Shown piece by piece: positions 42,829 to 47,672 of a stretch of 64,000 nt of DNA. Positions within the stretch are counted from its first letter, which is position 1; every line of letters starts with the position of its first letter. The position numbers were made by a program, and so were the translations under genes. Origin of the DNA: Clostridia bacterium (lineage in GTDB: Bacteria > Bacillota > DAOUPZ01); assembly GCA_030625885.1 (NCBI GenBank), contig DAOUPZ010000018.1, positions 19,147-83,146 on the forward strand. Reading direction: 5' to 3'. A model generated the notes under the pieces. That model ran no database searches. It was not told the origin of the DNA and worked only from the letters and a program-made list of their open reading frames with translations.

Positions 42829-44013
42829 TTACACTGAGCATAAATGATGCAGTAAAATAGTAAAGAGTACCATGCAGAAAAGTGCCATGGGATACGTGGC
42901 CCCATATCCGGCCGCTACTCTACTGTCATTCGTTGCATCAATCGCTGCGCCTAATCCAGGGGTACTGGTCATCCCCCCGCATAATGCACCCGCTAACAAC
43001 ACCCAGTTTATTTTAAACACAAATCTTCCCAGTATAAAACCAGACATCAGCGCTAAAATGCCTGCTGCCAAAGCCACTATGATTAAATAGAATCCGACCG
43101 TACCACTACTCAACAACTGTACCATTCCCGGGCCGCTTCGAATACCGACAATGGCCAGAAAAAATGCCAGCGATATTTGCTGCAACGCTGTTAAGATCCT
43201 TTCATTCATCCGAAAATTCAAATGACAGACTTTACCCTTATAACCCAAAAACAAGGATACAATCAAAACACCCCCTGTAGAACCCAAACTCAGATGTCCA
43301 ATGACGGGTATTGGAATATTAATTTTTCCAACCAAATAGCCTATCAAAAGTGCCGTGCCAAACGCCAGCAAATCAAAACCCGCTTCCCTTTCGTCCTTAC
43401 TATCCTGATTGCTTTTCATTTCCGACTTTAATTTTTCCTTTTCTTCCTGCAAGTTAATTCCAAAAAGTCTAGGGAACACCTGTACTGCAAATATCACAAT
43501 CAAAACACCAAAAGGATAACCAATTGCATGACCAATTCCCACATTTGCTTCCGCTGTCGACCCAAACATCGATACCGCTTCAATTGCCGCCCCCAACCCG
43601 GGGGAACTCGTCAATGCCCCTGTATAGACACCGGAAACCAAAAAGGGATCTATGTTTGGATTAAAGCACGTCATGATCAGCGTAACAGCAGCCCCTACAA
43701 ATGTGATCACGATTCCCATCATAATAAATTTCAATCCATACCGTTTCATAACAACGCCAATATCCTTGGCAGCCAAAAGGCCTACTGCCGCTACAAAAAA
43801 GATTAAATTCCAGTAAAAAAATTCTTTCCCCATCTCATATCCAAATAATCGATAAGCAAGGTACCCAAACACAATGCCCGTAAATAATGCTCCAGAAATA
43901 CCAAACCTCAGCCCCAAAAAACTTACTTTACCCAGCAAAAGACCTGTCATCAACGCCAAAAACATTAAAACAAAAGGGTTTGTAAAATAAGTATCTAAGT
44001 TAAGCAGTTCCAT
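42829..44013 (-). CDS. AspT/YidE/YbjL-type permease
   Basis: Two duplicated halves with motifs TSSPGLGAAIEA and TSTPGLGAAIDATND; polytopic. Confidence 0.75.
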   Translation of the reverse strand: MELLNLDTYFTNPFVLMFLALMTGLLLGKVSFLGLRFGISGALFTGIVFGYLAYRLFGYEMGKEFFYWNLIFFVAAVGLLAAKDIGVVMKRYGLKFIMMGIVITFVGAAVTLIMTCFNPNIDPFLVSGVYTGALTSSPGLGAAIEAVSMFGSTAEANVGIGHAIGYPFGVLIVIFAVQVFPRLFGINLQEEKEKLKSEMKSNQDSKDEREAGFDLLAFGTALLIGYLVGKINIPIPVIGHLSLGSTGGVLIVSLFLGYKGKVCHLNFRMNERILTALQQISLAFFLAIVGIRSGPGMVQLLSSGTVGFYLIIVALAAGILALMSGFILGRFVFKINWVLLAGALCGGMTSTPGLGAAIDATNDSRVAAGYGATYPMALFCMVLFTILLHHLCSV

Positions 44014-44053
44014 GCACATCATCCTTTCTTCCATGAGTTCATAAATTAGAGAT

Positions 44054-44299
44054 CTAACCGCTGTATATAATCGGATATAATTCTATGGTATCCCCTTCCT
44101 GAGGCTTATAATTTAAGTCATACATTTTCCTGTTATGAATAACATAACTGACTTCAGCTTCTGGAATGCTCAGTTGATTGACAATATCACGCACCGTACT
44201 ACACGCCGGTACTTTTACGATGTTTTTTTCTTGCTTACTGGGTACAAACCCTATTAATTCAGATGTTACGATCACCGTTATCTTCATTTTCTCATTCAT
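44054..44299 (-). CDS. MoaD/ThiS-like beta-grasp protein ending in Ser-Gly
   Basis: VPACSTVRDIVNQLSIPEAEVSYVIHNRKMYDLNYKPQEGDTIELYPIIYSG; overlaps AOR gene end. Confidence 0.8.
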   Translation of the reverse strand: MNEKMKITVIVTSELIGFVPSKQEKNIVKVPACSTVRDIVNQLSIPEAEVSYVIHNRKMYDLNYKPQEGDTIELYPIIYSG

Positions 44300-46386: not shown

Positions 46387-47589
46387 TCACTGCTTCACAT
46401 CAGCCAAAACTTCATCAATGACTTGAACCACTTGATCCAATTGTTCTTTCGTAATCACCAATGGCGGCACCATGCGAATCACATTGCCGGATGCACTGGC
46501 AATAACCCCTTTTTCCAGCATCTGGCCCACAATATCATGCGTATTAAAACCAACATCCACCCCAATCATCAATCCTTTCCCCCGTACTTCTTTGACAAAA
46601 TCATACTTATCAACCAATTCATTTAATTGACCCATAAAATAACTGCCCAATTCCTTAGCTCGTGCCGGTAAGTCTTCCTCAACAATGTAATTCACAGCAG
46701 CCAGAGCAGCCGCACAGGTGAAAGGTTCCCCCGCATAGGTACCACCGATGTCACCCGGCTTCAACGCCGCATTAATTTCATCCGTTATTAATACCGCGCT
46801 GACTGGCACGCCGCCACCCATTGCCTTAGCCAAAGTCATGATGTCAGGCTTAATGCCAAAGTCTTCATACGCAAATAAATATCCCGTTCTACCCATGCCG
46901 TCTTGAACTTCATCATCAATGAAAAGAATGCCCTTTTCATCACATAGCTTGCGTGCCCCCTGATAATATTCTTGTGTTGCTGGATAAACCCCGCCTTCAC
47001 CTTGAACCACTTCTAACATAACCGCCATGGTTTGATCGGTAATCGCTGCTTCTAACGCTTCCAGGTCATTATAAGGCACATGTTTAATAAATTTAGGAAT
47101 AATCTCTTCCCATCCCTTATGATATTTTTCCGTACCACACGCTGCCATCTGGGTTAATGTCCGTCCGTGAAAAGCATGATCCGCACAAATGACTTCATAT
47201 TTTTTCCCTACACCATACTTTTTGTCCATATACTTTTTTGCAATCTTGATCGCATTTTCATTGGCTTCAGAGCCGCTGCAAACGAAGAAAGCTTTATCCA
47301 AACAGGATAATTCCACCAACCGCTGTCCTAATTCAATGGCGGGAATGGAATGATGATAAGTAAAACACTGAATCATTTTATCGGCTTGTTCTTTAATGGC
47401 TTCAACCAGCTTGGGATTGCAATGTCCTACAGAAATAACGGCAATCCCCGCTAAAACATCAATATATTCTTTACCCTCTACATCCCAAAGAAGGGCACCT
47501 TTCCCTCTCTCGAGAACAACCGGATAACGATTGGTCCAGTTAATCAAATATTCATTATCCTTAGCAATCCATTCTTGTGTTTTTGTCAT
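46387..47589 (-). CDS. Class III (omega-amino acid / acetylornithine type) aminotransferase
   Basis: FVCSGSEANENAIKIAKKY, HAFHGRTL, FIDDEVQDGMGRTG, LAKAMGGGVPVSAVL (PLP Lys). Confidence 0.93.
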   Translation of the reverse strand: MTKTQEWIAKDNEYLINWTNRYPVVLERGKGALLWDVEGKEYIDVLAGIAVISVGHCNPKLVEAIKEQADKMIQCFTYHHSIPAIELGQRLVELSCLDKAFFVCSGSEANENAIKIAKKYMDKKYGVGKKYEVICADHAFHGRTLTQMAACGTEKYHKGWEEIIPKFIKHVPYNDLEALEAAITDQTMAVMLEVVQGEGGVYPATQEYYQGARKLCDEKGILFIDDEVQDGMGRTGYLFAYEDFGIKPDIMTLAKAMGGGVPVSAVLITDEINAALKPGDIGGTYAGEPFTCAAALAAVNYIVEEDLPARAKELGSYFMGQLNELVDKYDFVKEVRGKGLMIGVDVGFNTHDIVGQMLEKGVIASASGNVIRMVPPLVITKEQLDQVVQVIDEVLADVKQ

Positions 47590-47656
47590 TCTAAATACCT
47601 CCTCGTGAAATATTTTTTAAACATGCCCCCATAACAACTTACAATTAACCTTTATG

Positions 47657-47672
47657 TGCAATGCAGATGCCA
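47657..47672 (-). promoter_or_regulatory. Sigma-54 (-24/-12) promoter
   Basis: Minus strand TGGCATCTGCATTGCA; GG and GC dinucleotides separated by 10 nt as in TGGCAC-N5-TTGC; 68 nt upstream of the aminotransferase ATG. Confidence 0.75.

Follow-up and report, generated by a model that had tools for sequence, protein, structure and literature searches.

Here we describe a transaminase-AOR operon that is probably controlled by sigma-54 and whose whole composition was seen in one genome. In the window, by which we mean the entire 64-kb stretch of Clostridia DNA that was analyzed, open reading frames and domain models place genes for a class III aminotransferase (AT), an AOR-family tungsten oxidoreductase (AOR), a MoaD-like protein, and a short AspT-type permease consecutively on the minus strand (Table 1). 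The explanation we favor, to which we give an even chance, is that these genes form a sigma-54-inducible catabolic route in which an omega-amino acid is oxidized to a dicarboxylate. An activator encoded nearby would sense a metabolite through its GAF and PAS domains and open the promoter. The ArgD-like AT would then transfer the terminal amino group of the omega-amino acid to 2-oxoglutarate, forming a semialdehyde; candidate substrates are beta-alanine, GABA, or an (N-acyl)ornithine-like compound. The tungsten AOR, its cofactor sulfur putatively supplied by the MoaD-like protein, would oxidize the semialdehyde, and the resulting acid, probably a dicarboxylate, might be exchanged or exported by the permease, perhaps against the amino acid.

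Table 1. Operon, activator, and flanking elements, in positions of the window.
Feature	Position	Strand	Details
Intrinsic terminator of upstream pil operon	47724-47742	-	AGGAGCC-GAAAG-GGCTCTT + T run
Sigma-54 (-24/-12) promoter	47657-47672	-	TGGCATCTGCATTGCA; motif match to TGGCAY-N5-TTGCW
AT	46387-47589	-	400 aa; class III, ArgD family; PF00202; TIGR00707 438 bits, cut-off 410
Hairpin repeat between AT and AOR	46289-46323	.	GGGGACA...TGTCCCC; one of several dispersed copies
AOR-family tungsten oxidoreductase	44292-46256	-	654 aa; PF02730 + PF01314; Gly291 replaces first Fe-S cysteine
MoaD/Ub-like sulfur carrier protein	44054-44299	-	81 aa; PF14451 (Ub-Mut7C) 4.4e-11
Short AspT-type permease	42829-44034	-	401 aa; PF06826 x2 (Asp-Al_Ex), without RCK/TrkA_C
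Hairpin repeat after permease, possible terminator	42732-42766	.	139-base stretch folds at -50.0 kcal/mol
Activator, GAF-PAS-AAA(sigma-54)-Fis	40570-42573 (ORF)	+	GAF + PAS + Sigma54_activat + Fis; GAFTGA motif

The order and families of the four genes, and a GAFTGA-containing activator near their distal end, had been predicted from the sequence and are confirmed here. The activator gene is convergent to the operon at its permease end, and translation more likely starts at an ATG at 40618, behind GGAGGAAATACC, than at the start of the open reading frame. Operon and activator form an insert within a type IV pilus cluster, with PilO and PilM on one side and a pilus ATPase and pilin on the other. 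A c-di-GMP-II riboswitch (39296-39381, 55.3 bits) lies upstream of a pilin-like gene at 39834-40262.

The promoter is the single exact match to the sigma-54 motif in the 64-kb window, where 0.19 are expected, and 47672, the end that the original prediction gave to the operon, is the edge of this promoter, TGGCATctgcaTTGCA. Genome-wide, 10 exact matches were found versus 2 for a reversed control. A stretch of 67 bp separates the site from the AT start codon, which is preceded by a strong ribosome-binding site, and because an intrinsic terminator ends the upstream pil operon, the AT gene opens a new transcription unit. The MoaD-like reading frame overlaps the AOR stop; a single AT-to-permease transcript is only probable, since the 130 bp gap between AT and AOR holds a strong GGGGACA...TGTCCCC hairpin. 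Copies of this repeat lie at window positions 2736, 18843, 39667, 42732, and 46289, at 2479 in L130, and at 8801 in L177, and the repeat is also found in the argB-carA gap of the arg cluster of the same genome.

AFOR_N and AFOR_C domains span the full length of the AOR, which matches P. furiosus AOR (1aor) from end to end (E 7e-114). Three of the four cluster cysteines are retained (Cys294, Cys298, and Cys510), as are the second-shell equivalents of Thr243, Glu313, and His448; the Tyr427 equivalent is His, a residue common to the whole clade of this AOR and to the C. formicoaceticum AOR. The remaining cysteine position, residue 291, is Gly (codon GGA), where 48 of 48 compared AORs have Cys. 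A single sequencing error is unlikely to account for the change, GGA being two bases from TGT and TGC. At 65 near-invariant positions the window AOR deviates four times, including the cluster ligand, compared with 0-1 times for the other full-length relatives checked, and of 16 residues typical of the clade it has only 7; its substrate may thus differ from that of the clade, and its activity is not assured.

3Fe-4S clusters normally have a higher potential. Gly291 probably leaves the AOR with a 3Fe-4S or open-site cluster, and its electrons probably go to an acceptor that differs from ordinary ferredoxin or is less reducing. Reduced ferredoxin is therefore a doubtful product, and the loss of the first Fe-S cysteine weakens the ferredoxin step of the original prediction. 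P. furiosus WOR4, according to a 2025 review, likewise carries Gly in place of one Cys; it gives a 3Fe-4S signal, no aldehyde activity has been found for it, and its second-shell Tyr equivalent is Trp (PMC12096430). It is conceivable that the window AOR is a WOR4-like protein that is decaying or does not oxidize aldehydes, so that the second step of the operon has been lost. Such a loss would agree with the Gly codon, which differs from every Cys codon at two bases, and with the WOR4 clade, where Cys-to-Gly goes with a 3Fe-4S cluster and aldehyde activity has not been measured (PMC12096430). The 654-codon frame is intact, however, the Thr243, Glu313, and His448 equivalents are kept, and the Tyr427 equivalent is the His of the clade and not the Trp of WOR4; we regard this explanation as quite improbable.

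The relatives of the AOR suggest what it might oxidize. In a tree of 49 sequences, built by a quick method with SH-aLRT support and no bootstrap, the window AOR and 12 others form a 13-member clade (SH-aLRT 99). Half of the others (6/12) lie on the same strand as a class III AT gene and within 5 kb of it, either directly before it (L220, L221) or 3.9-4.9 kb away (L219, L039, L119, L120), against a rough chance estimate of ~0.3 of 12, taking ~five such genes per 2.5-Mb genome. Four clade members from other phyla are found in reductive pyrimidine-catabolism operons: L039, L040, and L041 encode PreA, PreT, a nitrilase-type beta-ureidopropionase, AOR, and dihydropyrimidinase, with a nucleobase permease in L039 and L040, and the L044 fragment carries genes for AOR, dihydropyrimidinase, and permease. 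PreT and ureidopropionase are named by context; PreA and dihydropyrimidinase score 548 and 627 bits, respectively, and both exceed their cut-offs in L039. The AOR gene in the pyrimidine loci is placed between those for beta-ureidopropionase and dihydropyrimidinase. Two further loci, L119 and L120, encode PanB- and/or PanE-type proteins, with an S58 peptidase in L119, and may serve pantothenate breakdown. Both routes would release beta-alanine, and its transamination would yield malonate semialdehyde. Because clade members sit in such beta-alanine-releasing loci, we predict that the clade is of a malonate-semialdehyde type.

AT-AOR pairing extends to several AT subfamilies. PRK06062-type ATs directly follow AORs in G185 and G350; in G204 (L248) an AT of this type adjoins a PreA homologue, a place that fits a role as beta-alanine AT, and no AOR lies within 1.5 kb on either side. 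Among related AORs outside the clade, one (L117) pairs with a PRK08117-type AT and another (L107:2301-5558, G024) is directly preceded by a GABA transaminase (TIGR00700, 561 bits; cut-off 506.65), a candidate GABA-to-succinate route through tungsten. An AT-AOR pair is present in G021. The expected co-occurrence of the five families was thus borne out in part: AT and AOR recur together with different AT subfamilies, whereas the exact five-gene set was found in no other genome when the neighborhoods of AOR, permease, and AT relatives were searched. We propose, tentatively and with a little less than even confidence, that the clade comprises tungsten malonate-semialdehyde (omega-semialdehyde) oxidoreductases, which would give anaerobes a third way to dispose of malonate semialdehyde in beta-alanine, pyrimidine, and pantothenate breakdown. 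The window member would then be a variant whose cluster is WOR4-like and whose substrate comes from an ArgD-derived transaminase under sigma-54 control.

The AT itself invites a different reading: it would be the only ArgD for biosynthesis (N-acetylornithine transaminase), moved away from its usual place, and would lie merely by chance beside the AOR, MoaD-like protein, and permease, which would make up an aldehyde-oxidation unit of their own. The AT exceeds the cut-off of the ArgD model TIGR00707, on which a genuine but partial ArgD scored 517 bits, and is the best scorer in its genome; it falls below the cut-offs of the models for GABA transaminase (TIGR00700, 270 bits vs 506.65) and ornithine aminotransferase (TIGR01885, 328 vs 378). 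All 29 of the nearest Bacillota AT relatives checked sit in argJ/argB clusters. The arg cluster of this genome, on contig C6, reads argC-J-B-carA-carB-F-H (J and B by model, the others by eye) and contains no argD, and the AT lies on C5, unlinked to arg genes; the same hairpin repeat occurs in the argB-carA gap and after the AT gene. Of 139 conserved ArgD positions, 37 are altered in the AT and 39 in E. coli ArgD, a true ArgD, so that divergence alone is compatible with ArgD activity.

Against a purely biosynthetic role stand the sigma-54 promoter, the replacement of N77 (a residue that E. coli ArgD and the AT on contig C27 both have), and the rate at which the AT has diverged. Its mean identity to the checked ArgDs is 46.9%, compared with 62.9% among those ArgDs themselves, a shortfall of 16 points; in the same genomes the shortfall is 3 points for ArgB (59.4 vs 62.5) and 6.5 for ArgJ (50.7 vs 57.2). 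Isolation of the lineage was rejected as the cause, since ArgB and ArgJ have not diverged to that degree. ArgD could also be supplied by a second ArgD-like AT family, the C27 type, which scores 385 bits and has several copies, including partial ones at contig ends. L178, L179, L180, and L181 carry copies of an ArgD-like AT that resemble one another closely and are cut off where contigs end; the repeats of this gene family fragment the assembly. A tree that joined the window and C27 ATs was set aside on a long-branch warning. The original prediction had named a sole biosynthetic ArgD as the finding that would undo it; the TIGR00707 score and the arg cluster without argD speak for that reading, the C27-type ATs and the excess divergence against it, and we consider it rather unlikely, though less so than the other alternatives. 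The role of the AT is most likely dual or altered relative to that of a plain ArgD, and it may double as an arginine-synthesis enzyme. The overall scheme of transamination and AOR oxidation is plausible and is strengthened by recurrent AT-AOR pairing and the AOR clade context; its ferredoxin step is doubtful, and a dedication of the AT to catabolism is putative.

The permease matches solved AspT structures (PDB) distantly and scores well below the cut-off of the AspT equivalog TIGR03802 (138 vs 547), and the central RCK domains are absent. Its relatives, at 40-50% identity, adjoin genes for glutamate 2,3-aminomutase (699 bits, cut-off 650), succinate CoA-transferase (809, cut-off 659), and P5C dehydrogenase (808, cut-off 614), and in G069 malic enzyme (by eye) with an AOR 4 kb away. 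These glutamate- and succinate-related neighbors point to C4/C5 dicarboxylates or glutamate as its substrate. The short AspT-type permeases beside glutamate 2,3-aminomutase in L101 and L103 are possible glutamate or beta-glutamate transporters. The import originally assigned to the permease was not upheld, as members of the AspT family may work as exchangers instead.

In E. coli and B. subtilis, respectively, the ast and roc operons depend on sigma-54 and use ArgD/OAT-type transaminases. By analogy, the window operon could be a tungsten counterpart of AST/Roc in which (N-acyl)ornithine is converted through (N-acyl)glutamate semialdehyde to (N-acyl)glutamate, the AOR replacing AstD or RocA. An ArgD-type AT with a sigma-54 site, a permease family found beside glutamate and P5C enzymes, and a genome in which a catabolic PF00171 aldehyde dehydrogenase was not found are all in its favor; AOR relatives that indicate beta-alanine and not glutamate semialdehyde, together with the subthreshold ornithine-AT score, count against it, and we judge this alternative unlikely.

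The preferred reading, oxidation of an omega-amino acid through AOR, is set in a genome with 10 AOR matches and only one, weak PF00171 match (57 bits). The latter gene and a neighboring ArgB-resembling kinase gene may be read as ProA/ProB, and the AORs are likely the aldehyde oxidizers of this genome. No dihydropyrimidinase over the cut-off was found there, and a pyrimidine source of beta-alanine is thus not evident. The activator, which would control the operon, scores below the cut-offs for PrdR (456 vs 795) and DhaR (419 vs 551). Two paralogues, each 56% identical to it, are encoded on contig C26 with a ferredoxin-like protein, an AOR, an amidohydrolase, and two MoaD-like proteins; a sigma-54-like site, CACTTTGGCAgaaaaaTTGCA, precedes the ferredoxin-AOR pair, and a putrescine-type AT gene lies ~10 kb away. 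Activator-AOR pairing is therefore repeated within the genome. Around this AOR (G000:C26:77000-106000; L131, L182), two rpoN-like genes (by eye) are each followed by an activator paralogue, and a sigma-54-like site also precedes the first activator. An operator common to the three paralogues was sought and rejected, as they share nothing beyond the sigma-54 core and words expected by chance. Other AOR genes of this genome (L128, L129, L130) have genes for a TRAP-type transporter, an M20 amidohydrolase, and SHMT-like proteins nearby (by eye), and perhaps their products oxidize aldolase-made aldehydes. One AOR copy (G000:C19:11616-12701) has an in-frame TAA and is possibly a pseudogene.

AORs mostly lack an assigned substrate and are often taken for detoxifiers (PMC12096430). 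An AOR clade tied by context to beta-alanine-forming pathways provides a substrate that can be tested directly and perhaps an energy-conserving final step in the fermentation of pyrimidines and amino acids. The presence of 10 AOR matches with essentially no classical aldehyde dehydrogenase suggests that AORs carry aldehyde oxidation in this genome, and the Cys-to-Gly AOR is a natural variant in which the influence of the cluster on the choice of electron acceptor can be examined. The clade membership of the window AOR and the link to pyrimidine and pantothenate loci are new here; none of the papers searched joined aldehyde ferredoxin oxidoreductase with beta-alanine, or AOR with aminotransferase, gene cluster, and semialdehyde.

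Several known systems come close to the operon. Its AOR resembles AORs sensu stricto (P. furiosus 1aor; C. autoethanogenum 9g7j) over its full length and in the Thr243, Glu313, and His448 equivalents, and differs from them by Gly291 and by His at the Tyr427 equivalent. With P. furiosus WOR4 it shares the replacement of one cluster Cys by Gly (PMC12096430), although it has His where WOR4 has Trp, and its clade otherwise has all four cysteines. In reductive pyrimidine degradation (Pyd), clade AORs in the four pyrimidine loci occupy the position that handles malonate semialdehyde, that of the MSDH/PydE branch, whereas the window operon contains no pyrimidine genes; for such clusters, the portion of PMC7332683 consulted describes PydE (a reductase) and MSDH (a dehydrogenase) and does not mention AOR. 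As in the GabT/GabD route, transamination would precede oxidation, and a GabT-AOR pair exists in G024, but the window AT is of the ArgD family and an AOR stands in for the dehydrogenase. The permease is like the AspT aspartate:alanine antiporter in its two Asp-Al_Ex domains and PDB matches, and unlike it in having 401 residues without central RCK domains. Finally, MoaD-like genes lie beside AOR genes in the AOR-linked MoaD clusters described by Iyer in 2006 (PMC1779556), and to this adjacency the window operon adds an AT, a permease, and a sigma-54 promoter.
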